From Gallionellaceae bacterium (GTDB lineage Bacteria; Pseudomonadota; Gammaproteobacteria; Burkholderiales; Thiobacillaceae), in the NCBI GenBank assembly GCA_028714875.1, contig JAQTLN010000023.1:4585-61722 (forward strand): a DNA stretch of 57,138 bases, given 5' to 3'. Under the pieces are notes generated by a model. That model saw nothing but the letters and a program-made list of their open reading frames with translations. It had not been told where the DNA came from and did no database searches. Made by a program: the position numbers and the translations under genes. This document shows, piece after piece, positions 19-11,638 of this stretch (positions are counted from its first letter, which is position 1; each line of letters starts with the position of its first letter).

Positions 19-1548
19 TCATTCGTAGGCCGGCAGGGTGGTCAGGCGGGCGTCGTCGACTGGTATGCCCACCGCGAAGTGGTAGACCACCTGGTATTTC
101 GTGTCTCCCAGCCCCAGCACTTCATGCACGGCGTCGTCGAAGAAGCAGCCGATGCCGGTGCCGCGCCAGCCGGCGGCTTCGGCTTCGAGGGTGAGGCAGT
201 GGCCGAGCATGCCGGCTTCCCAATGCAGATGGCGCCAGGCGGCGGGGTTGTCCGCGATGGGGGCGGCGAATTCGGCGATGAAGGCGAAGGTAACGGCGCT
301 GTGTGAGGCGATGTCCTGGTGGCAGGAGAGGGTGCGGGCGGTACGTTCGGTCTTGGCGGCGAGCAGTTGCAGCAGAGGGAGTTCCGGGTCGGCCGGGGTC
401 CAGGCGAACATTTGCGGCATGGCTTGTTTCAGGCCGGCCAAGGCGGTTTCTGAACGCGGCAACGCATAGAGGCCGGGTTTCAGGCCTTCGACGCGATGCA
501 CGAGCAGGATTGGGTGCACGCGCGGGGCGCGCGGCCACAACCGCCAGACCGGCGAGCCGCCCGGCAGCAGCGCGGCGAGCAGGCTACGGAAGACGGCATG
601 GGGCATCAGCGATTTGCCGTCGAAGGCCTGGGCGCTGCGGCGTTGCAGGATGACTTGCGTGGCGGGGAGGGTGGAGGTGGTGGCGACCGGTTTCGCCGCA
701 TGCGCCGGCGCGGGGGGCGCGGGCGGCAGGGGGCCACGGGTGGCCGCCGCGACTTCCTCGATCACCGGCCATTCATACATCGGCTTCACGTCGAGCAGGC
801 TGGGTTGGCCTGCCCAGTGGTTCCAGGTCGGCGGCGCGCCGGCGTCGGCTTGCAGGGTGACGATGACTTCGGCTTCCTCGGCCTCCACACCATTGAAATC
901 GGCGTCGCGATCAGTTCCGAGGCGGGCCGCGGTTTCCTCCGGATCGAGCGCCAGCAGGCGCGCTTGCCAGCCGTGCAGAGCGGCGGCGTAGGCGAGGGCG
1001 GCGAGTACATGGCCCATGTCCAGTTGGCAGTAGCGGAAGGCGCGTTCGCCGTATTTCCAGGCTTCGCGCCAAGGGATGGAGCTGTAGCCGAACCAGACGC
1101 CGGGTGCGGTGGCGTCGCCCCAGGCGCGCCGTTCCAGGCTATGGTCGCGCGCTTGGTAGTGAAAGAGACCGTCTTCCAGTCCAGGAACGCCGCTGGCGAT
1201 CAGCCAGGTTTCCGTCGGGTGCAGGTTGCCGGAGGAGGGGTGGGCGCGCAGCGACCAGCGGCTGCCGCCGTATTGTTTCCAGGCGGTGAGGCCGGCGCAC
1301 AGGCGCAGCAGGGAGCCCAGGCAGGCCGGTGTGAAGGCTTGCGCCGGGCGGGGTTGGTCAAGCAGGGGCCAGAGGATGTCCGTGGCCAGTATCTCGCGCG
1401 GCAGGGGCGTGACTTGGGTTCCCCGCCAGTGGCGGAAGGGGTCCGGCTGCGCCTCCCAATCGAGGGAGCCGGGGCCGGCGGCGTAGCGGTCGAGCTGGTG
1501 TTTGGTGCGGGCGTGATAGGCCAGCGTGCTGGCGATGCGGTCGTCCAC
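19..1548 (-). CDS. SagB/ThcOx-type FMN-dependent oxidoreductase
   Basis: The protein is a two-lobed nitroreductase-fold enzyme of the SagB/ThcOx family, which in peptide natural-product pathways oxidises azolines to azoles and elsewhere occurs as a stand-alone FMN oxidoreductase. Visible features are the family opening (KHQLDRYAAGPGSLDW, then QPDPFRHW), an RAHPSSGNLHPTE segment in the first lobe and a QRRSAQAFDGKSL segment opening the second. I chose the GTG at 1548 because GAGG lies 8 bases upstream and homologs begin near this point. An ATG at 1626 would add 26 proline-rich residues. No cyclodehydratase or precursor-peptide gene is visible beside it, so a role in azole formation is not supported. 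It is the last gene on the minus strand, downstream of the amidotransferase/transglutaminase cluster. The family call is strong; the substrate is unknown. Confidence 0.85.
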   Translation of the reverse strand: MDDRIASTLAYHARTKHQLDRYAAGPGSLDWEAQPDPFRHWRGTQVTPLPREILATDILWPLLDQPRPAQAFTPACLGSLLRLCAGLTAWKQYGGSRWSLRAHPSSGNLHPTETWLIASGVPGLEDGLFHYQARDHSLERRAWGDATAPGVWFGYSSIPWREAWKYGERAFRYCQLDMGHVLAALAYAAALHGWQARLLALDPEETAARLGTDRDADFNGVEAEEAEVIVTLQADAGAPPTWNHWAGQPSLLDVKPMYEWPVIEEVAAATRGPLPPAPPAPAHAAKPVATTSTLPATQVILQRRSAQAFDGKSLMPHAVFRSLLAALLPGGSPVWRLWPRAPRVHPILLVHRVEGLKPGLYALPRSETALAGLKQAMPQMFAWTPADPELPLLQLLAAKTERTARTLSCHQDIASHSAVTFAFIAEFAAPIADNPAAWRHLHWEAGMLGHCLTLEAEAAGWRGTGIGCFFDDAVHEVLGLGDTKYQVVYHFAVGIPVDDARLTTLPAYE

Positions 1549-1651
1549 TTTGAATGCCTCGTGCGCTAAGGGTCTGACGCATAGTGCGGGCGAGGCGGGA
1601 GGATGGCAATGCGGCGGGCGCGGCAACCGGCTCGCGACTTATTCGTGACGC

Positions 1652-1711: not shown

Positions 1712-1969
1712 TTAACGGCTGGCTGGGCGGGTCTGCATGCTGCGCACGACGGCGGCGACCAGAGCCTCGATTTCGTTCCCGGACATATCCGGGAAGGTGG
1801 TCTGCAATTTGGTCATGGCCTTGTAAAAGGCCGCGCCGTTGTGGCTCGCGGGATTGCCCAGGAGGGGCTTGAGTAGGGCCTGGGCGGTATCGAAGTGCTC
1901 ACGGAGCGCCAAATTGCGGCGGCGCTCCGTTCGCGGCGGCTTGGCTGCCGTCTGGTTGTGTAATTGCAT
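1712..1969 (-). CDS. Small hypothetical protein (about 85 aa)
   Basis: I do not recognise this protein. It is basic and soluble-looking near the N terminus (KPPRTERRRNLALREHF), followed by a helical segment (FDTAQALLKPLLGNP) and a C-terminal helix (IEALVAAVVRSMQ). The start at 1969 gives MQLHNQ; another ATG at 1984 gives MDETNMQ. The longer open frame to 2107 is rich in residues from what appears to be leader DNA and is less likely. An upstream inverted repeat (2040-2079) may be an operator or transcript hairpin. No function is proposed. The reading frame itself could still be spurious, although its codon use resembles that of the neighbours. Confidence 0.45.
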   Translation of the reverse strand: MQLHNQTAAKPPRTERRRNLALREHFDTAQALLKPLLGNPASHNGAAFYKAMTKLQTTFPDMSGNEIEALVAAVVRSMQTRPASR

Positions 1970-2039
1970 GTTCGTCTCATCCATCTTGTAGTTGGCCACA
2001 CGGGCTGCGGGCCAAGGCGGGCAGCTTATCGCGGGGATA

Positions 2040-2079
2040 TGACGGCAATATTGCTGGTAGGTAATTACCAATGCCGTCA
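2040..2079 (-). promoter_or_regulatory. Dyad upstream of the small hypothetical gene
   Basis: TGACGGCA (2040-2047) and TGCCGTCA (2072-2079) form a perfect 8-base inverted repeat, and a 10-base palindrome GGTAATTACC sits between them at 2060-2069. Two nested symmetric motifs about 70 bases before a start codon look like a regulator-binding region. I have no direct evidence for the regulator. Confidence 0.35.
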
Positions 2080-2144
2080 AGGGGCGCGAGTATGCCCTTG
2101 TTCGCAACCACCACTAAGGGAAAAGATTGATTTATTGATGTAAA

Positions 2145-2873
2145 TCATGTGAAGCGCGCCCGCGCCATTGCGGCGAAGCGCGGTAACAGGCTGGCGGCAA
2201 TGGGGGTATCGCACAATCTGGCGCGTATCTGTTCGCAATCCTGGCCGGCCGAGCACAACTGCTGGGCGAGGTGGTGCACGTAGGCGTTCATGCGCTCCTG
2301 GTTGAATTCCGGGTGGAACTGGATGCCCCAGGCCTGGTCGCCGACGCGGAAGGCATGGTGTGGCTCGAACTCGTTGCCGGCCAGCAGAACGGCGTCCGGC
2401 GGCAGGATGCTCACGCTCTGGGCATGCACGGCCAGCCCGGGAAATCTCGCGGGTAGGTCGTGAAACAAGCGGTCGTCGCGGCTGGGGGGATAGAGGTTGA
2501 GGTCGACGCAGCCGATCTCCCGCCCCTTCGGGTGGAAATCGACGCGGCCGCCCATCGCCTCGGCGAGCATTTGATGGCCGAAGCAGATGCCGAGGAAGGG
2601 CACTTCGGCGGCGACCAGACGTGGCAGCCAGGCGAGAGCGCGGCGCATCCAGGGCAGGCGGTCGGTGAGCATCGCGTGGGCGCCGGTCATGATGACGGCG
2701 GCACAGGTTTCGGGTTCCGGCAGCGGTGCGTCGCGCCAGATTTCCACCACGTCGATCCGGTCGGCGGGCAGGTTCAGGCCGGGCAGCAGCCAGGCGTCAA
2801 AATCGCCCAGGCGGGCGGCTACATCGGGGAAGGTGCTGCCGGCTTTGAGGAGGATGAGGTTGCGAGTCGTCAT
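2145..2873 (-). CDS. Class I glutamine amidotransferase (GATase1)
   Basis: This stand-alone 242-residue class I glutaminase domain resembles the amidotransferase part of GMP synthase. The catalytic nucleophile is Cys97 in FLGICFGHQ, and the partner residues are His187 and Glu189 in IQFHPEF, so the triad is complete. No synthetase domain is attached; such enzymes hydrolyse glutamine to deliver ammonia or attack gamma-glutamyl compounds. The start codon overlaps the stop of the upstream transglutaminase gene (ATGA, 2870-2873), which implies translational coupling. Its place beside the transglutaminase, ATP-grasp and alpha-E genes suggests that it supplies ammonia or trims a gamma-glutamyl group in that system; this is inference. 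Confidence 0.85.
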   Translation of the reverse strand: MTTRNLILLKAGSTFPDVAARLGDFDAWLLPGLNLPADRIDVVEIWRDAPLPEPETCAAVIMTGAHAMLTDRLPWMRRALAWLPRLVAAEVPFLGICFGHQMLAEAMGGRVDFHPKGREIGCVDLNLYPPSRDDRLFHDLPARFPGLAVHAQSVSILPPDAVLLAGNEFEPHHAFRVGDQAWGIQFHPEFNQERMNAYVHHLAQQLCSAGQDCEQIRARLCDTPIAASLLPRFAAMARARFT

Positions 2874-3748
2874 GGCTTGTCGTCGAGTCGGGTCACGGTG
2901 ACCGCGACCTGCAAGGTATGTGTGCCACCGCCGTGGATGACGCCTTTGAGTGGGGTAACGTCGCCGAAGTCGCGGCCCCAGGCGAGGGTGAGATGGCCCT
3001 CGCCGGCGGCGATGCCGTTGGTGGGGTCGAAATCGTACCAGCCCAGTCCGGGCAGCCAGACGCTGATCCAGGCGTGGGTGGCATCGGCGCCCAGTTGCCG
3101 CGGCATGCCGGCGGGCGGTGTGGTTTCCAGATAGCCGCTGATGTAGCGGGCGGCCAGACCCAGCCCGCGCAGGCCGGCCAGGGCGAGATGGGCGAAATCC
3201 TGGCAGACGCCGTGGCGCTCCTTGAGCACTTCGTCCAGGGGCGTGTCGATCTCGGTGGCATTGGGGCGGTACTGGAAGTCGGCATGGATGCGCGCGGTGA
3301 GGTCGGCCACGGCTTCGAGCAGGGGGCGGCCGGGCGGAAAACTTTCGCCGGCGTACCGGGTAGCTTCCGCGTGCCGCGCGATCATGGGCGATTCCAGGCA
3401 GAACTCGCGCGCGGCGACGGCCTCGACGCTGAGGAAGCGTGGCCGCGTGGCCAGCGTTTCCCAGGGAGGCGAGGCGGGCGCCGGGAGCGCCGCCGCGCGT
3501 TCGACCACGCTGTGGCCGGTCACGCTCAGAATATGGTGCGGTTGCCGCGACATGAACCAGACGACCCGATTGCCCCAGACGTCGCGGCGCTCCTGACGGT
3601 CGTCGATGTTCGGATGCAGTTCCAGGTGGCTTTCCAGCACGCGTTGGCCGGGTGTGTCGCGTGGCAGCATGCGCGCCTCGCCGTAGTTGAGGTCGACACT
3701 CTGGGCGTAGTCATAGCGGGTGAGGTGTTCGATGTGGAAACGGGTCAT
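2870..3748 (-). CDS. Transglutaminase-like protease/transferase with N-terminal beta domain
   Basis: The 292-residue protein has the bacterial transglutaminase N-terminal region (about 1-85, MTRFHIEHLTRYDY) and a papain-like core. The triad is visible as Cys182 in RHGVCQDFAHL, His225 in ATHAWISVW and an Asp in YDFDPTNG (about 239-241). Such enzymes in this context are thought to cleave or transfer peptide amide bonds. There is no signal peptide, so it probably acts in the cytoplasm. The 3' end overlaps the amidotransferase start. The upstream gene is the ATP-grasp/alpha-E fusion, separated by a palindromic repeat pair (3755-3856). Family assignment is firm; the substrate is unknown. Confidence 0.88.
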   Translation of the reverse strand: MTRFHIEHLTRYDYAQSVDLNYGEARMLPRDTPGQRVLESHLELHPNIDDRQERRDVWGNRVVWFMSRQPHHILSVTGHSVVERAAALPAPASPPWETLATRPRFLSVEAVAAREFCLESPMIARHAEATRYAGESFPPGRPLLEAVADLTARIHADFQYRPNATEIDTPLDEVLKERHGVCQDFAHLALAGLRGLGLAARYISGYLETTPPAGMPRQLGADATHAWISVWLPGLGWYDFDPTNGIAAGEGHLTLAWGRDFGDVTPLKGVIHGGGTHTLQVAVTVTRLDDKP

Positions 3749-3754
3749 CGCGGG

Positions 3755-3856
3755 ATTCCCCCCTTTACCAAAGGGGGGCTAGGGGGGATTTCTGATGCTG
3801 ATGGCCGGGCATACGTCGTTAAATCCCCCCCGGCCCCCCTTTGGGAAAGGGGGGAG
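3755..3856. repeat. Palindromic G/C-run repeat pair
   Basis: Two hairpins of six C, TTTACCAAA or TTTGGGAAA, then six G are arranged around a central spacer, each followed or preceded by a GGGGGGATTT-type arm. The same unit lies inside the DUF2126 gene (8147-8244) and in the array after fliI (56297-56740). Here it occupies the gap between the ATP-grasp/alpha-E and transglutaminase genes. Confidence 0.9.
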
Positions 3857-3881
3857 AAAGACAGGCTCACCAAGCGGTCAT

Positions 3882-6395
3882 TCATGACTGCACCCCTCCC
3901 GCGTTCAGGGTATGCAGCTCCTGCACATGGGTGAACCAGGTCTGGGTGATGGCGCCGGAGGCGGTGCCGAGGGTGGCGCTGACCTCGTTCAGGATTTGAA
4001 TCAACTGAACACGTTTTTCTCTATCGAGGTGCGGGTCCGTCACACGGGAGGCGTTGGCGAGCAGCCGTTCTTCCACGTCGCGCAGCAAGTGCCGCGCCTC
4101 GCAGTGTTGTAGTGGGCGGGCGATTTCGCCGAGGTGCAGGCGCGCGGTGTTGAGTTGAAAGACCAGCGCGCGCGGGCTGTCCGTGTCCCACAGCAGCAGT
4201 TCCAGGACGCCGGCCAGGAACGGTTCGCCGCGGTAGCGGCGGCGGAAGGTGACCAGGCTGTCCGCGCTTTGCAGCACCAGGGACAGGCTTTCGCGTTGCG
4301 CCTCGTCGGTGAGCCGCGACTCCAGTATGCAGGTGAGCACGCTGCTGGCGGTGAGGCCGCGTTCGATGCGGCGGCCCAGGTCGAAAAAGCGGAAAGCGTC
4401 CGCGCGCGGCAGGGTTTCCGAAGCCAGGCCGGCGAGGCCGGCCAGGGTGTCGATCAAATGGCCGAGCCAGAGGTCGCTGCGTTCATGGCCGCGATTGCGG
4501 CGGCGCTTGCTCCAGTCGCGCTCGATGCGGTCGAGCAGGCGCCAGATCGCCACCGACCAGTATTCGCGTGTGCTGTAGGTGCAGGCGAGCAGGGCGCGCA
4601 CGGTATGGGCGAGGTTGCCGGGATGATCTTTGTGGGTGATCAGGTCGTGCACCTCGGCCGCCAGGGTCGCGGGAAAGTCGGCTTGTTCCAGCAAGTCGCG
4701 GGAGGCGGGCTGGTAGCCGACCATGCGCATCAGCGCGGTCAATACCGGCACCTGGCCGGGCGTGGTTTCCTCTTCCCAGAGTCCGTCGAGCAGCGCGCGC
4801 AGCAGGCGCGCCACGCCTTCCGCGCGTTCCAGGTAGCGGCCCGCCCAGAAGAGGTTGTCCGCCGCGCGACTGGTGAGGATTTCCGTCTCCGCCGGGTTGC
4901 CGGCGCCCAGCAGCACGCTGGAGGGAATCGCCTTGGGCGGCGCCGGGGTGACCCAGGTGTCTTTCGACAGCGCGCCGCTCTGGCTGGAAAGGAAGGCGCC
5001 GTCGCCGCAGCGGGTGAGGCCGCCGGGCATGGCGACATAGCCGTCGCCCTGGCTGACCAGGAAGGCGCGCAAGCTCATGTGTTGCGGCGCCAGACGGTGG
5101 TCGCGCAACGCCGGCACGCTGGACAGCGACATCGGCTGCTGTCCGACATAGAGGTGCGGCCGCGCCCGGATGCGCGCGCGCCAGGTGGCCAGTTGCCGGC
5201 GGTCCAGGTTCGCGCCCAGCACGGTTTCGCTGGCCTGGCCGCGAGCGATGGGTTTGAGCACTAGTCGCGGCAGGTTGGCCAGCACGTATTCGCATTCCTT
5301 TTCCTGCCCGCACCACCAGGTGGCGGCGGTGGGCAGGGCCAGGTCCTCGCCCAGTAGCATTCTCGCCAGACGCGGCAGGAAGGGCAGCAAAGCGGGATTT
5401 TCCAGGAGGCCGGAGCCGGGTGGATTGGCCATTGCCACCGTGCCGCGCCGCAGCGCCTCGATCAGCCCGGCGGTGCCCAGGCGCGAGTCCTGCCGGAGTT
5501 CCAGCGGGTCGCACCACTCCTCGTCGAGGCGGCGCAGGATCACATCGACGGGCTTGAGGCCGGATACCGCCTTCAGCCAGACCCGGCCATCGCGCACGGT
5601 GAGGTCGTCGCCCTGGGCCAGGGTGTAGCCCAGGCGCGCGGCCAGATAGGCGTGTTCGAAGTAGGTTTCGTTGGCCGGGCCGGGGCTGAGCAGCGCCACA
5701 TGCGGCTGCTCGCGCGGCGACAGTTTGACCAGCGCAGCCTGCACCGCCTTCAGCCAGTGGGTGAGTTTGGCGACGCCGGCGCCTTCCAGAAGCTCCGGGA
5801 AGGTGCGCGCCATCACCGCGCGGTTTTCCAGGGCATAACCGGCGCCGGAAGGCGATTGCGTGCGATCCGCCACCACCCAGACCCGGCCATCCGGCCCGCG
5901 CGCCAGATCCGCCGCGTACAGCACCAGTTGCCGCCGTTCGCCGGCGGGGGACGCGGACAGCGCGCCGAGCATCGGGCGTAGATAGCCCGCATGGCCGAAC
6001 ACCAGTTCCGGCGGCAACAGACCATTCTTGAGCACGCTCTGGGCGCCGTAGAGGTCGCGCAAGAGCAGGTCGAGCAGGCGCGCGCGCTGATCCAGCCCGG
6101 CCGCGATGACCAGCCATTCGTTGCCGTCCAGCACCAGCGGGATCGGGTCGAGTTCCCAGGTGCGGCTGTTGCCGCGAGGGTCGTCGTAGACGTGATAGGT
6201 GACGCCGTTCTCGCGCAGCAGCCGGGTGATGCGCTGTCCGCGCTCCGTCCACTCGCGCGCGCCGAAGCGGGTCATGCCCTTGACCAGATGCGCCCAGTGC
6301 GGGCGCACGCCGCTTCGCGTGTCCCACATCTCGTCCCAGGTGTTGGGGAGGGGGTGGTAGTCGGAGGAGGGGGTGAGCAGGGAAAGCTGGTTCAT
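3882..6395 (-). CDS. Circularly permuted type 2 ATP-grasp / alpha-E fusion protein
   Basis: The 837-residue protein joins two modules that are separate genes in many bacteria. Residues about 1-480 form a circularly permuted ATP-grasp ligase (conserved opening WDEMWDTRSGVRPHW and, later, YVYDDPRGNSRTWELDPIP-like and VALLSPGPANETYFEHAYLA-like stretches). From about residue 510 comes the all-helical alpha-E domain, opening with SRAADNLFWAGRYLERAEGVARLL. ATP-grasp enzymes join a carboxylate to an amine through an acylphosphate. This subtype is predicted to make peptide bonds or tags in clusters with transglutaminase-like enzymes. It sits between two transglutaminase genes on the same strand, consistent with one pathway. 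Product and acceptor are not known. Confidence 0.88.
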   Translation of the reverse strand: MNQLSLLTPSSDYHPLPNTWDEMWDTRSGVRPHWAHLVKGMTRFGAREWTERGQRITRLLRENGVTYHVYDDPRGNSRTWELDPIPLVLDGNEWLVIAAGLDQRARLLDLLLRDLYGAQSVLKNGLLPPELVFGHAGYLRPMLGALSASPAGERRQLVLYAADLARGPDGRVWVVADRTQSPSGAGYALENRAVMARTFPELLEGAGVAKLTHWLKAVQAALVKLSPREQPHVALLSPGPANETYFEHAYLAARLGYTLAQGDDLTVRDGRVWLKAVSGLKPVDVILRRLDEEWCDPLELRQDSRLGTAGLIEALRRGTVAMANPPGSGLLENPALLPFLPRLARMLLGEDLALPTAATWWCGQEKECEYVLANLPRLVLKPIARGQASETVLGANLDRRQLATWRARIRARPHLYVGQQPMSLSSVPALRDHRLAPQHMSLRAFLVSQGDGYVAMPGGLTRCGDGAFLSSQSGALSKDTWVTPAPPKAIPSSVLLGAGNPAETEILTSRAADNLFWAGRYLERAEGVARLLRALLDGLWEEETTPGQVPVLTALMRMVGYQPASRDLLEQADFPATLAAEVHDLITHKDHPGNLAHTVRALLACTYSTREYWSVAIWRLLDRIERDWSKRRRNRGHERSDLWLGHLIDTLAGLAGLASETLPRADAFRFFDLGRRIERGLTASSVLTCILESRLTDEAQRESLSLVLQSADSLVTFRRRYRGEPFLAGVLELLLWDTDSPRALVFQLNTARLHLGEIARPLQHCEARHLLRDVEERLLANASRVTDPHLDREKRVQLIQILNEVSATLGTASGAITQTWFTHVQELHTLNAGGVQS

Positions 6396-6424
6396 GGCCG
6401 AATACTACCCAAGCAAGGTGCTTT

Positions 6425-6559
6425 GTAGCGCCGGCGTCTCGCCGGCTTCGTCCTTCTGATCAGATTCACGAAGCCGGCGAGAGAGCGTGGTCGTTATGCC
6501 GCCGGGGTTTCGGCGGCATTACAACCACGGCCTACCCCTTGCGGGTGCGCCGGCGCTAC
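6425..6559. repeat. Inverted REP pair (BIME-like)
   Basis: The element opens with GTAGCGCCGGCGTCTCGCCGG at 6425 and closes with the mirror CGCCGGCGCTAC ending at 6559. A long central hairpin lies between them (CGTGGTCGTTATGCCGCC against GGCGGCATTACAACCACG). It fills the whole gap between the DUF2126 gene and the ATP-grasp gene, and could act as a transcript-processing or partial termination structure. Confidence 0.85.
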
Positions 6560-6565
6560 AGCTTG

Positions 6566-9500
6566 TCACTCGGGTTTTCGCCGCAGGTCCAGGGTATACG
6601 GATATTCCAGCGTGGGTTCTTCCGGGGGGGGCGCCATCAGGCGCAGGCCGCCGCCTTCGGGGATGAACTCGGCCACTCGGGCGAGGTCGGGCGGCACCTG
6701 GACCGGGCCGGGCGTGTGGTTCCAGTCCTGGTAGCGGTTGACGCGGCGCGACTCGGCCTCGTTGGCGTTGATCGGGAAGGTGTCGTAGCTGCGCCCGCCG
6801 GGGTGGCTGACGTGATAGGCGCAGCCGCCGATGGCCTTGCCGGTCCAGGTGTCGATCAGGTCGATCACCAGCGGGCTGTGCACGCCGATGGTGGGGTGCA
6901 GCGCGGAAGGCGGCTGCCAGGCGCGGTAGCGGATGCCGGCGACGTATTCGCCGTGGCGGCCGGTGGATTTCAGCGGCACCCGGCGGCCGTTGCAGGCGAC
7001 CACATAGCGGTTGCCGGAGAGGCCGCTCACCAGCAACTGGATGCGTTCCACCGAGGAGTCGACGAAGCGGGCGGTGCCGACGTTGCTGAGTTCCTCGCCC
7101 AGGACATGCCAGGGTTCGATGGCGGTGCGCAGTTCGATTTCGATGTCGTCGATATTGACCGTGCCGATGCGCGGGAAGCGGAATTCGATGAAGGGATCGA
7201 GCCAGTCGGCCTGGAACGGGGTGCCGGATTCCTGGATGTCGCGCACCACGTCGAGCAGGTCGGCGCGCACGTAATGCGGCAGCATGAAGCGGTCGTGCAG
7301 TTCGGTGCCCCAGCGCACCAGTTTGTGTCGGTACGACTTTTCCCAGAAGCGCGCGACCAGGATGCGCAGCAGCAGTGCCTGCGTGGCGCTCATCTGCCAG
7401 TGCGGCGGCATTTCGAAACCGCGGAACTCCACCAAGCCCAGGCGCCCGGTCGGGCTGTCCGGCGAGTAGAGCTTGTCGATGGAGAACTCGGAGCGGTGAG
7501 TATTGCCGGTGAGGTCGACCAGCAGGTTGCGCAACAGGCGGTCCACCAGCCAAAGTTGGCTGGTTTCGCCGGTCGGCATCTGCTGGAAGGCGATTTCCAG
7601 TTCATAGAGTTTCTCGTCGCGCCCCTCGTCGACGCGTGGCGCCTGGCTGGTGGGGCCGATGAACATGCCGGAGAACAGGTAGGAAAGACCGGGGTGGTGT
7701 TGCCAGTAGGTGACCAGGCTCATCACCAGGTCGGGCCGCCGCAACATCGGGCTGTCGGCCGGAGTGGCGCCGCCCAGGGTGACGTGGTTGCCGCCGCCGG
7801 TGCCGGTGTGGCGGCCATCGAGCATGAATTTTTCCGTGGTCAGGCGCGCCAGGCGGGCTTCCTCGTAGAGCACGCGGGTGTTGCCGATGAAGTCGTCCCA
7901 GGAACTCGCCGGGTGGATGTTGACCTCGATGACGCCAGGATCGGGCGTGACCATCAGGCGTTGCAAACGCCAGTCGCGCGGCGGTTCATAGCCTTCCAGG
8001 ATGACCGGAGTATCGGACTGCGCGGCGACCTGTTCGATGGCGGCGGTCAGTTCGAGGTACTGTTCCAGCGTGGACACCGGTGGCATGAAGATACGCACCA
8101 CGCCGCCGCGCGCTTCCACACAGAGGGCGGTGTGGATGACAGTAGCTCCCCCCTTTGCCAAAGGGGGGCGGGGGTGATTTGTTGTTGCATCTGTGCCGGC
8201 GTCGGAAAAATCCCCCCCCGCCCCCCTTTGGGAAAGGGGGGGGGCCGCCAGGCCTTGTTCCTGTATCTCGGGGTGCGCTTCCCGCGCCGGCTGAAACTCG
8301 GAATAGCGTCGGGCCACTTCGCCATAGCTGTCCGGAAGCTCACCGCGCGGCGCGAACAGGTCCAGCGGCCAGGTCGGCTCGCGTTCCGCCTCGGCCACCC
8401 AGGGCAGGCTGTCCAGCGGCAGACGCAGCCCTAACGGCGAATCACCGGGGATCAGGTAGAGGCGGCCACGGCGGAAACGCCAGACGCTGCTCTTCCAGCC
8501 GTTCCCGCTGTCATCCCAGGCGATGGGCAGGACGTAGCCGACCGGCTCATCGAGTCCGCGCGAGAGCTTGTCGGCCAGACTACGGCGCTCTATCGGGTCT
8601 TTCAGGTTGATTTTGGCCAGATCCAGGTTGGCCGGGTGTTCCGCTTCTTTCAACAGGTAATGCAGCGCGTCCTCATAGCCGGCTTGGCTATACGCGGCGG
8701 GCAGGCCGAGCCGGCTGCACAGTGCTTCCATGAAGGCGGCGGCCGTGGCGCTGGTGTGGCCGTATGACTTGCCTTCATCCGCCAGCAGTTCGGGGTTCTT
8801 CCACAACGGCACGCCGTCACCGCGCCAGAAAATCCCCAGCGCCCAGCGCGGCAGGGGTTCGCCGGGATACCACTTGCCCTGGCCGGAGAATTTCAGCCCG
8901 TTGGGCGCGAAGTGGTTGCTCAGGCGCTTCCACAAATCCCGCGCGCGCTCCAGTTTGTGGGGGCCGAGCGCGGCGGTGTTCCACTGCGCCGATTCCATGT
9001 CGTCGATGGAAACGAAGGTGGGTTCGCCGCCCATGGTCAGGCGTACGTCGTTTTCGCTCAGTTTCGCGTCCACCGCGCGGCCGAGGGCGTCGATGGCGAG
9101 CCACTGGTCGTCGCGGTAAGGCTTGGTAACGCGCGGGTCTTCGTGGATGCGCACGACACTGTTGTCGAAGCTGAAGGTGACCTCGCATTTGTCCGTGGCG
9201 CCAGTCACCGGCGCCGCGCTGACCGGGTCCGGCGTGCACGCCAGCGGGATGTGGTTTTCCCCGGCGAACAGGCCGGAAGTGGGGTCGAGGCCAAGCCAGC
9301 CGGCGCCCGGCACATAGACTTCGGCCCAGGCGTGCAGGTCGGTGAAATCGGCTTCCGGGCCGGAGGGGCCGTCGAGTGATTTCAGGTCGGCGGTCAGTTG
9401 CACCAGGTAACCGGAGACGAAGCGGGCGGCAAAGCCGAGGTGGCGCAGGATCTGCACCAGCAGCCAGGCGCTGTCGCGGCAGGAGCCGCGGCCCAGGGCC

Positions 9501-10018
9501 AGGGTTTCCTCGCAGGTCTGCACGCCGGGTTCCATGCGGATGTTGTATTGCAGGGCCTTCCAGACTTGCTGATTGATGTCCACTAGAAAGTCCTGGGTAG
9601 AGCGTGGCGTGTGCTCCACTTCCTTCAGCCAGGCCATCAGCAGGGGGCCGGATTCGACCCGCTCGCAATAGGGCACCAGTTCCTTGGTCAACTGTTCGTC
9701 ATATTCGAACGGGTAGTCCTTGGCGTATTCCTCCAGGAAAAAATCGAAGGGGTTGATCACCGTCATGTCGGCGATGACTTCGACCTCGAAGTCGAAGTGC
9801 GTGGTCTTTTCCGGAAACACCAGACGCGCCAGGTAGTTGCCGAACGGGTCTTGCTGCCAGTTGATGAAATGCTTTTCCGGCCGAATCCGCAGGGAATAGC
9901 CCAGGATCGGCGTGCGGCTATGCGGCGCCGGACGCAGACGCAGGATGTGCGGCGCCATGTTGACGGGTCGGTCGTATTGGTAGTGGGTCTTGTGACGAAT
10001 CGCGACGCGGATACTCAT
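6566..10018 (-). CDS. DUF2126 transglutaminase-family protein, carrying a repeat-encoded insert
   Basis: The 1150-residue protein begins with a transglutaminase N-terminal domain ([20 protein letters not shown]) and a core with Cys180 ([10 protein letters not shown]), His229 ([10 protein letters not shown]) and Asp245 (GLDPTSG). The long DUF2126 region fills the rest, including stretches such as [11 protein letters not shown] and [13 protein letters not shown]. Together with the ATP-grasp/alpha-E and small transglutaminase genes it forms the known but biochemically undefined peptide-ligase neighbourhood. Residues about 592-625 are encoded by the palindromic repeat at 8147-8244; they read [12 protein letters not shown]...PRPPLAKGG and are foreign to the family, yet the frame is kept. 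No signal peptide is seen. It is probably the first gene of the cluster. Confidence 0.9.
8147..8244. repeat. Palindromic G/C-run repeat inside the DUF2126 gene
   Basis: This is the same hairpin pair as at 3755-3856 (CCCCCCTTTGCCAAAGGGGGG and CCCCCCTTTGGGAAAGGGGGG around a spacer), here wholly inside a coding region. Its length and phase leave the reading frame open on the gene strand. Confidence 0.9.
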
Positions 10019-10245
10019 GGGATGTTTGTCCGGAGTGGGGGCTGGCGGAAAAGGGGGCGGGAATGAGCAAGGGAATGAGCAAGATTCGCGCCGGTTAAAT
10101 TTGCACCGGCGCGATATTGGCGTCAGCCATGCGGTGGGCAGGGAATAGTTGCGCGGGAGGCGTGACGATACGCCGTTCGCTTGCGCCGGTCAGCGCGCAT
10201 GAATGACGCGGGTTGCGGGGCGGTCGGCACCAATCTGGTGCGTCT

Positions 10246-10349: not shown

Positions 10350-10514
10350 TAGTCAGTCACCATGAATCGAATGGATGGCCCGTAGGATGTGGTGAGCGTA
10401 GCGAACCGCATCGATCTCGTTCGCATTGCATGGCGCGGTTCGCTACGCTCACCACACCCTACGTCAGAGTGGGGTGCGCTTATGTCCCTGTGTTTCAACG
10501 TGACTGACTACTAG
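10346..10514. repeat. Nested element with 15-base inverted ends around a GTAGGATG palindrome
   Basis: CTAGTAGTCAGTCAC (10346-10360) and GTGACTGACTACTAG (10500-10514) are perfect inverted repeats. Between them is a complete copy (10381-10463) of the GTAGGATGTGGTGAGCG...CTCACCACACCCTACG palindrome also found at 26209 and 35611. The remainder of 10019-10523 shows no credible gene. Confidence 0.7.
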
Positions 10515-10523
10515 GGCATCGTT

Positions 10524-11555
10524 TCAGCGGCTACGGCCGCTCCAGCGGCTATCGATGAAATCCCTATAGCGTAGTTGCGCGGCCGCCGGGTTGTCGCCGC
10601 TGACGGCATGGAAAAAGGCTTCGGAGTTGCGCGCCGCTTCTTCGCTGAAGGCGCCGTCCGGGCTGTAGATGTTCTTGTGCGCGGCCAGGTATGTTTCCAG
10701 CGACTGTTTTTCCTCCCCCTCCGGCAATTGCAGGCGCGCCACGATGTCTTGCGCGCTGTGTGTCGCTATCCAGCGCAGGCTGTCGCGCAGGGCGGTGTTC
10801 ATCCGACGAATCTTGTCCGGATGGTCGCGCAAGGTCTCCGTCGTGGTGGCCAGTTGGGTATAGAGAAAGCGCCCACCCAGGTGGGCCTTTGCCTCGGCTG
10901 GATCGTGCAGATCGACCAGGCGCAAGGCGAGTTTGTGTTTCTCCAGCAAGGTGGCGGCCGGTTCGTTGACCACGATGGCGTCGACCTGTCCCGATTCCAG
11001 CGCCGCGCTGTAATCGGCCAGGTTCTGCCCGGCATAGACGAAGTTGACGTCGTCGCCGCGGATGCCGTTGCGCTGGAGCAGGTATTCCGCGATCTGGCGC
11101 GCGGTGGATTTGCCCTGTTTGCTGCCGCTATGCGTGCCGATGGTTCGCCAGCGCAGGTCGGCGAGCTTGTGTATCTGTGATTTGAGATCCTGTCGCGCCA
11201 TCAGGACATAGGCGGGCGTCTGGGTGAGCGCGATGACGGATACCAGGTTCGGATTGGACAGTCGAATTCCGGCCAGCGCCGGCATGCCCAGTCCGGCGAA
11301 ATCACTGTTGTGATCGAGCATGTCCTTGACCGCCAGTGGCCCGCCACCGAAATAGCGCACGCTGAGAACAAACCCGGCCTTGCGGTCGGCGCCGATACGC
11401 GGCATCAGTTCCAGCGGCAGATAAGGCGCCGCATGGGGGCCGGGCATGGCGACCACCATGCGCATGGGTTCGGCCGCGATGGCCCGTTGCGGGAAATGGC
11501 CGAGCAGAAACGCGCACAGGACAAGGTTGCTTGCAATGATGGCTAAACGCTTCAT
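10524..11555 (-). CDS. Periplasmic ABC-type substrate-binding protein (SsuA/NMT1-like)
   Basis: This looks like the solute-binding component of an ABC importer of the nitrate/sulfonate/thiamine-precursor class. I chose the ATG at 11555 because a perfect AGGAGG lies 6 bases upstream and it begins a clear signal peptide ([19 protein letters not shown], likely cleaved after AIA before AEP). The start at 11597 would place 14 extra basic residues in front. Typical features follow: a [15 protein letters not shown] stretch, GLGMPAL, and [22 protein letters not shown]. No ATP-binding or permease gene is adjacent, so it is either an orphan or works with components encoded elsewhere. The ligand cannot be assigned. 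It is divergent from aroC. Confidence 0.8.
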
Positions 11556-11638
11556 GTGTTTCCTCCTGGGAGCGGTTCGCTGGCTATCGCCGCGCATGCG
11601 GTAAAATCCCGGCCCGATTCATTTTTCCCTCACCCACC

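Follow-up and report, generated by a model that had tools for sequence, protein, structure and literature searches.

A conserved operon with NtrC- and sigma-54-type upstream elements that may make and hydrolyse glutamyl or peptidyl amides

We analysed a window of 57,138 nucleotides from a Gallionellaceae bacterium (positions 4,585 to 61,722 of contig JAQTLN010000023.1 in assembly GCA_028714875.1). An operon on its minus strand encodes a large transglutaminase/DUF2126 protein, a fusion of a circularly permuted ATP-grasp to Alpha-E, a small transglutaminase-like protein, and a class I glutamine amidotransferase (GATase)-like protein. We propose, with moderate confidence, that this operon is a nitrogen-starvation system in which NtrC and sigma-54 control the making and hydrolysis of glutamyl or peptidyl amides, with the GATase acting as a hydrolase. 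The operon probably both joins and cuts amide bonds, and its kind has been recognised chiefly by comparing gene context. The core gene set and its prediction as a peptide-ligase system are already known, as is the fact that nitrogen controls related clusters in two further organisms. What is new relative to the literature that we found is the conserved sigma-54 and NtrC-type elements 5' of the DUF2126 operon, the structure prediction that gives DUF2126 a glutamine-synthetase fold, and the GATase variant that is kept in most of one genus. The literature that we found names no product or substrate. The apparent nitrogen-starvation promoter, which is conserved, indicates when to look for the product, and the predicted glutamine-synthetase fold together with the coupled GAT-like enzyme indicates which bond to seek. 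This makes the question one that metabolomics and an assay can address directly.

The first gene in transcription order (6566..10018, minus strand) encodes 1150 amino acids, with Pfam matches to Bact_transglu_N, Transglut_core, and DUF2126. It is followed on the same strand by the ATP-grasp/Alpha-E fusion (3882..6395, 837 amino acids; CP_ATPgrasp_2/1 and Alpha-E, with 475 bits for CP_ATPgrasp_2 and 186 bits for Alpha-E), by the small transglutaminase-like gene (2870..3748, 292 amino acids; Bact_transglu_N and Transglut_core), and by the lone GATase-like gene (2145..2873, 242 amino acids; PRK09065 family), whose start overlaps the transglutaminase stop by 4 bases. The initial annotation, made from the letters of the window, had described these four same-strand genes, the overlap and, DUF2126 apart, the same kinds of domain, and Pfam and NCBIfam agree with it. 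Its catalytic triads were nearly all right as well. Cys180/His229/Asp245 is kept in 39/39 large proteins, and Cys97/His187/Glu189 of the GATase in 21/21. In the small transglutaminase, Cys182 and His225 are kept in 70/70 along with Asp241, which had been placed at "about 240". The observations were thus confirmed in part, and the interpretation was supported in part, as described below.

One omission was in the large protein. Residues 6-246 are a papain-like transglutaminase domain, and DUF2126 (PF09899) makes up most of the protein (residues 276-1146; 1311 bits, with the full profile covered). A structure prediction gave DUF2126 a glutamine-synthetase fold, as in carboxylate-amine ligases, so it may well be an amide ligase. 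The ATP-grasp, which had been named as the bond-forming enzyme, is therefore not the sole candidate for this role. The ATP-grasp does keep its motif residues: all 15 aligned sequences have Asn191, and at least 90% of them have Glu190 and Lys381, so the loss of metal or ATP residues that would have counted against it was not seen. (We take these three to be the metal/ATP residues. The solved relative of this part is 3n6x.) A sequence search of the large protein against solved structures gave no match, and a search of the available literature for the word DUF2126 found no paper.

To describe conservation, we used 101 genomes (that of the window and those of 100 relatives) and the best 80 of 592 confirmed loci from a scan of a genome collection for DUF2126. 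Among the 101 genomes, 44 have DUF2126 and 51 have Alpha-E, and because all 44 with DUF2126 are among those 51, the association of the operon's genes is not due to chance. Judged by their record titles, the 80 scan loci belong to Proteobacteria, Bacteroidota, Verrucomicrobia, Nitrospirota, Planctomycetes, and others; 45 of them have the transglutaminase and 46 have an ATP-grasp of fusion length. Within the window's genus, 18 genomes have DUF2126. The window encodes the ATP-grasp, Alpha-E, and a transglutaminase-like protein together, and this trio, as the initial annotation stated, forms a neighbourhood that was already predicted to be a peptide-ligase system; the available parts of three sources demonstrate no product for it (PMC6376114, PMC5666114, PMC2588565). 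Some copies of the operon are split. In one genome (locus L044, G016:C20), about 9 kb of other DNA lies between the DUF2126 gene and the ATP-grasp fusion, and the transglutaminase and GATase remain with the fusion. In a genome of the genus (G003), the trio portion, still with the GATase, is on a different contig from DUF2126.

The evidence for nitrogen control, which the initial annotation had not mentioned any more than the predicted fold, lies upstream of the large gene. A sigma-54-type promoter, CGGCGCGAATCTTGCT (GG-N10-GC, 10078..10093, minus strand), starts 75 bases 5' of the start codon, and an NtrC-type palindrome, GCACC-N5-GGTGC (10227..10241, minus strand), starts 223 bases 5' of it. 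We examined 16 upstream regions from the genus, which are 35-49% identical to the window's (15 are distinct, as L040 and L088 share the same last 150 bases; L076 was left out because it has no usable start). All 16 have a sigma-54-like site scoring at least 5.5, and 13 also have the NtrC core. In dinucleotide shuffles, the rates were 5.8% for the site, 1.3% for the NtrC core, and 0.075% for both. More broadly, 32 of 117 distinct upstream regions score at least 6 (0.4% in mononucleotide shuffles) and 12 score at least 7 (0.04%). Most of the sites scoring at least 6 (23/32) sit 46-56 bases 5' of the start. Such scores are found in 21 of 25 regions within the window's family, upstream of the operon-internal fusion gene in 0/33, and upstream of separate ATP-grasp genes in 22 of 54. 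Azonexus fungiphilus DSM 23841 (L156) has the operon with both a sigma-54-like site and an NtrC palindrome, and no GATase adjoins it there. A scan of the whole window for sigma-54 sites, allowing mismatches, did not exceed chance expectation (25 sites versus 31 expected), so the case for sigma-54 rests on position and conservation. The genome has 23 exact NtrC palindromes, versus 6 for a reversed-pattern control. Among the 20 of these that we examined, three have a sigma-54-like site within 400 bases downstream: the one at this operon, one at an rnfA gene (TIGR01943; L206 2610, G000:C19), and one with a weak site. RpoN is present in the window's genome (457.6 bits, above the cut-off), and NtrC is above its cut-off in 87 of the 101 genomes, among them 20 of 22 further genus members.

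Published expression data for related clusters are consistent with this control. In an ntrC mutant of B. cenocepacia, values of -6.0 to -9.4 are given for the genes that encode ATP-grasp, DUF403, transglutaminase, and large transglutaminase proteins (PMC5491218). Under nitrogen limitation in P. putida, PP_2686-2688 are reported to be up by 11 to 37, with PP_2685 at 1.1 to 4.8 (PMC7801951); PP2685-2687 are reported to be raised in another P. putida study (PMC3325844), and PP_2685 and PP_2688 to be raised on nitrate (PMC8050072). Abundance across marine metagenomes is also reported to link operon-type domains to urea metabolism (PMC3597751).

The GATase belongs to PRK09065 (NCBIfam, 279.8 bits; cut-off 205) and also matches Pfam GATase (PF00117, 59.9 bits). 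Peptidase_C26 scores 28.5 bits (cut-off 20.5) and is not the leading family; we take PuuD, the gamma-glutamyl-GABA hydrolase, to belong to Peptidase_C26, so the GATase does not look like a PuuD-type enzyme. Of the 101 genomes, 21 have it above the cut-off; 16 of these also have DUF2126 (out of 44 that do) and 5 do not (out of 57). Within the genus, 14 of the 18 DUF2126 genomes have it (the others are G007, G012, G015, and G018). In 12 of these 14, it lies directly 3' of the transglutaminase, with junctions of -10 to +45 bases, and identity of the linked copies to the window's falls as low as 51-60%. A tree of the 21 sequences places the 15 genus copies that are related to the window's in a supported clade (100/97). 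The three unlinked copies in this clade are nested among the 12 linked ones, and three label changes are required. The linkage looks ancestral in the genus, with later separations, and it may have been renewed in the window's line.

Outside the genus, we found no such linkage, so the linkage that had been suggested as a check holds in the genus and was not seen beyond it in the loci examined. The test covered open reading frames (ORFs) of at least 80 amino acids (BLAST E of 1e-6). No GATase was found beside the operon in any of the 80 scan loci, so we rejected universal linkage; of the 45 scan loci with a transglutaminase, 43 extend at least 1000 bases past it. Nor was one found at the 8 loci from the set of relatives that are outside the genus and have the transglutaminase. 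One scan locus (L155) has a weak match of 24% to the GATase, 7 kb from the operon. A search of plasmids with the GATase gave 165 records, all below 60% identity, whose best rows are annotated only as glutamine amidotransferase, and a search of PHROGs gave no match. As no GATase scores above the cut-off in 28 of the 44 genomes with DUF2126, including 4 from the genus, it is not a required source of ammonia for the core chemistry. Of the two halves of an earlier hint, that glutamine-derived ammonia or a gamma-glutamyl group is involved, the gamma-glutamyl role is the better one. We favour reading the GATase as a lineage-specific hydrolase partner that was added to an older core, and not as the core's ammonia donor. 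In aniline degradation, a GAT-like enzyme is reported to hydrolyse a gamma-glutamyl amide (gamma-glutamylanilide) that is built by a glutamine synthetase-like ligase (PMC11335346), and a GAT-like thiol peptidase next to a different family with this fold is described by Iyer et al. 2008 (PMC2588565).

We therefore suggest the following scheme, in which the cis-elements and their conservation are observed. In nitrogen shortage, binding of an NtrC-type activator at 10227-10241 would turn on transcription of the four genes from the sigma-54-type promoter at 10078-10093. The predicted glutamine-synthetase-fold domain and the ATP-grasp might each activate a carboxylate with ATP and couple it to an amine, which would give a glutamyl or peptidyl amide. 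The two papain-like domains, joined by the GATase in most of the genus, would hydrolyse such amides; by analogy with the enzyme that acts on gamma-glutamylanilide, the Cys-His-Glu triad of the GATase might cut a gamma-glutamyl bond. By conjugating reversibly, the system would overall capture scarce nitrogen and let it go again.

Several observations weigh against this scheme. The NtrC core is absent from 3 of the 16 genus upstream regions. Scores stay below 6 in 85 of the 117 upstream regions, and beyond the window's family just 11 of 92 regions attain that value, which makes the control lineage-limited. NtrC itself is not above the cut-off in the window's own assembly of 54 contigs (best match 413.7 bits versus 558.6). 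That match adjoins a kinase with a membrane-like start, and we presume that it is not NtrC. In the P. putida table, the first column shows essentially no change for PP_2685 (1.12; PMC7801951). No substrate, product, or activity is known for the operon, and in a study of a related operon, phosphate release was the one activity reported for the ATP-grasp, and none was seen for Anbu (PMC6376114). A transglutaminase domain could form bonds and not just break them. Among solved structures, the top matches of the GATase are a glutamine amidotransferase with no stated function (1.6e-12) and, next, a GMP synthetase subunit (5.2e-12); a gamma-glutamyl peptidase ranks behind both (5.9e-11). Finally, three genomes of the genus (G007, G015, and G018) have the whole trio and no such GATase, and two genomes (G022 and G001) retain the GATase without DUF2126 or Alpha-E.

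Might the GATase instead hydrolyse glutamine and pass the ammonia to the ATP-grasp or to the glutamine-synthetase-fold domain? The pairing of a GATase1 with an ATP-grasp has precedent, as CarA passes ammonia to CarB, and the complete triad, the tight junctions in the 12 linked genomes, and the GMP synthetase glutaminase subunits among the best solved matches would all fit. Given the 28 DUF2126 genomes without the GATase, its absence beside the operon in the scan loci, and the two genomes that keep it without DUF2126 or Alpha-E, we think that such channelling is improbable. We also consider it rather unlikely that the GATase is a separate gene, from a cluster with a binding protein, a 131-amino-acid protein, and a SagB-family protein, that abuts the operon by chance. 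This would account for G006, G017, and G022, where the GATase is near an NMT1/SsuA-like binding protein and the 131-amino-acid gene and the trio, including the transglutaminase, does not adjoin it, and for the three genomes with the trio and no GATase. However, most of the GATase clade is linked, with the unlinked copies nested among the linked ones, and the linkage persists at 51-60% identity. Also, the DUF2126 gene is broken in G006 (L076) and G017 (L047), which are precisely the two genus genomes that have both genes with the GATase away from the operon, so the separation goes with decay. In G006, only profile positions 1-101 and 644-826 of DUF2126 remain; in G017, it is in three pieces, one with an internal stop. 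(These breaks may be assembly errors.)

The remaining alternatives concern the product. In nitrogen starvation, a peptide or glutamate might be attached to proteins that Anbu would then dispose of, in a Gram-negative parallel to pupylation, with the GATase and the transglutaminases removing the tag. The predicted glutamine-synthetase-fold ligase would suit this, pupylation is reported to matter to mycobacteria in nitrogen starvation (PMC8223512), and Anbu-side genes of P. putida are reported to be induced by nitrogen limitation (PMC3325844, PMC7801951, PMC8050072). The same genome also has a second Alpha-E operon, on contig C36 (ATP-grasp, 547 bits; Alpha-E, 286 bits), which has a perfect sigma-54 site, TGGCACGCTCCTTGCA, 43 bases 5' of its start and is divergent from an Anbu-like gene. 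That gene scores 22.3 bits for Pfam Proteasome, just below the cut-off of 22.4, and we call it Anbu-like mainly from its context. An M17 aminopeptidase gene adjoins it (L033 13071-18023, G000:C36). Tagging seems unlikely to us because the Anbu-like gene is on another contig and not in the window's operon, and because sites scoring at least 6 are found in just 1 of 40 Anbu upstream regions. In addition, the available text of PMC6376114 reports no Anbu peptidase activity, and Iyer et al. 2008, who favour small peptides, did not see a Pup-like ORF next to the fusion family (PMC2588565). Equally speculative is a nitrogen cycle on a peptidyl carrier, or a Gram-negative equivalent of pupylation, that NtrC and sigma-54 would induce: in nitrogen starvation, the glutamine-synthetase-fold ligase, with its own papain-like domain, would conjugate glutamate or a peptide and work with the Anbu-side operon, and the GATase of the genus, as a gamma-glutamyl hydrolase, would reverse the conjugate. 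We give similarly little credence to a small peptide metabolite, either glutathione-like or like a ribosomally synthesized and post-translationally modified peptide, with the SagB-family protein as a tailoring oxidase and with incidental nitrogen control. Iyer et al. 2008 predicted such a product (PMC2588565), and there is the SagB-family match at 19-1626. But a SagB homologue is 3' of the GATase in just one other genome (G017), and NtrC-type control would fit scavenging better than the making of a product.

The proposed amide-based nitrogen system resembles several known ones. The closest is the ATP-grasp/Alpha-E/transglutaminase/Anbu operon that was predicted by Iyer et al. 2009, as described in PMC6376114 and PMC5666114. 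It also encodes circularly permuted ATP-grasp, Alpha-E, and transglutaminase-like proteins together, and induction of this operon type by nitrogen limitation is reported in Pseudomonas. In the window, by contrast, ATP-grasp and Alpha-E are one protein, a fusion of transglutaminase and the predicted glutamine-synthetase fold leads the operon, the Anbu-like gene is found at another place in the genome, and the GATase is an extra member. Rv2566, from a family of transglutaminase and carboxylate-amine ligase fusions, is presumably itself a DUF2126 protein. This family (PMC2588565) has the same domain order as the window's protein, which matches DUF2126 over the full profile. It is described as having a GhExE signature (PMC2588565), which has no exact match in the window's large protein; the nearest motif is GGEPT, at residues 330-334, which is kept in 56/56. 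Glu332, Glu698, His745, Glu864, and Arg866 of DUF2126 are invariant. The window's protein also differs in having a stretch encoded by a repetitive extragenic palindromic (REP)-like repeat in a variable linker. The amine-utilisation pairs AtdA1/AtdA2 and NpaA1/NpaA2 likewise combine a glutamine-synthetase-fold ligase with a GAT-like enzyme in one cluster (PMC11335346). We liken these by composition, and the window adds the ATP-grasp, Alpha-E, and two transglutaminase domains and has no oxygenase among the operon genes. The NtrC-activated cluster I35_5080-5083 of B. cenocepacia encodes NtrC-dependent DUF404/407, DUF403, transglutaminase, and large transglutaminase proteins; there, ATP-grasp and Alpha-E are separate genes, and no GATase is named in the available part of the paper (PMC5491218).

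We also considered a fixed "hydrolase slot" 3' of the transglutaminase outside the genus, which looks weak. Among 29 loci with a co-directional downstream ORF, two of these ORFs are an ATP-grasp gene and a DUF2126 gene, and the other 27 were scanned with Pfam. Four encode an M20 peptidase, a Peptidase_Mx, a Gln_deamidase_2, and a histone-deacetylase-type protein; one is Anbu-like by BLAST only, with no Pfam match; three are further transglutaminases; and three have only a sub-threshold match to CbiA. Six are unrelated (HD, TetR, two DEAD helicases, FliL, and a mechanosensitive channel), and 10 have no family. The Gln_deamidase_2 (glutaminase) gene is directly 3' of the transglutaminase in Flavobacterium restrictum (L130 17044-17994).

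In the window, the GATase is followed after 37 bases by the gene for the 131-amino-acid protein (1712..2107, minus strand), which has no Pfam or NCBIfam match and has homologues 3' of the GATase in five other genomes of the genus. After another 85 bases comes the SagB-family nitroreductase-type gene (19..1626, minus strand; 535 amino acids; TIGR03605 at 87.4 bits, cut-off 78.4), which is possibly the last gene of the transcript. A pair of REP-like palindromes at 8145-8246 (minus strand) lies in frame within the DUF2126 gene, in a hypervariable linker, and inserts of similar look are at the same linker position in L043, L044, and possibly L041. A second pair of these palindromes occupies the gap between the ATP-grasp/Alpha-E and transglutaminase genes (3758-3856). 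Allowing one mismatch, the pattern has about 700 matches per strand in the genome, versus 3-4 for a reversed control. Upstream of the operon are an NMT1/SsuA-like periplasmic binding protein gene (10524..11597, minus strand; Pfam and NCBIfam) and a dispersed repeat at 10350-10515 that resembles a miniature inverted-repeat transposable element. This repeat has 81 matching pieces in the genome, counting both strands, of which five, including the window's, are nearly full-length (at least 83%).
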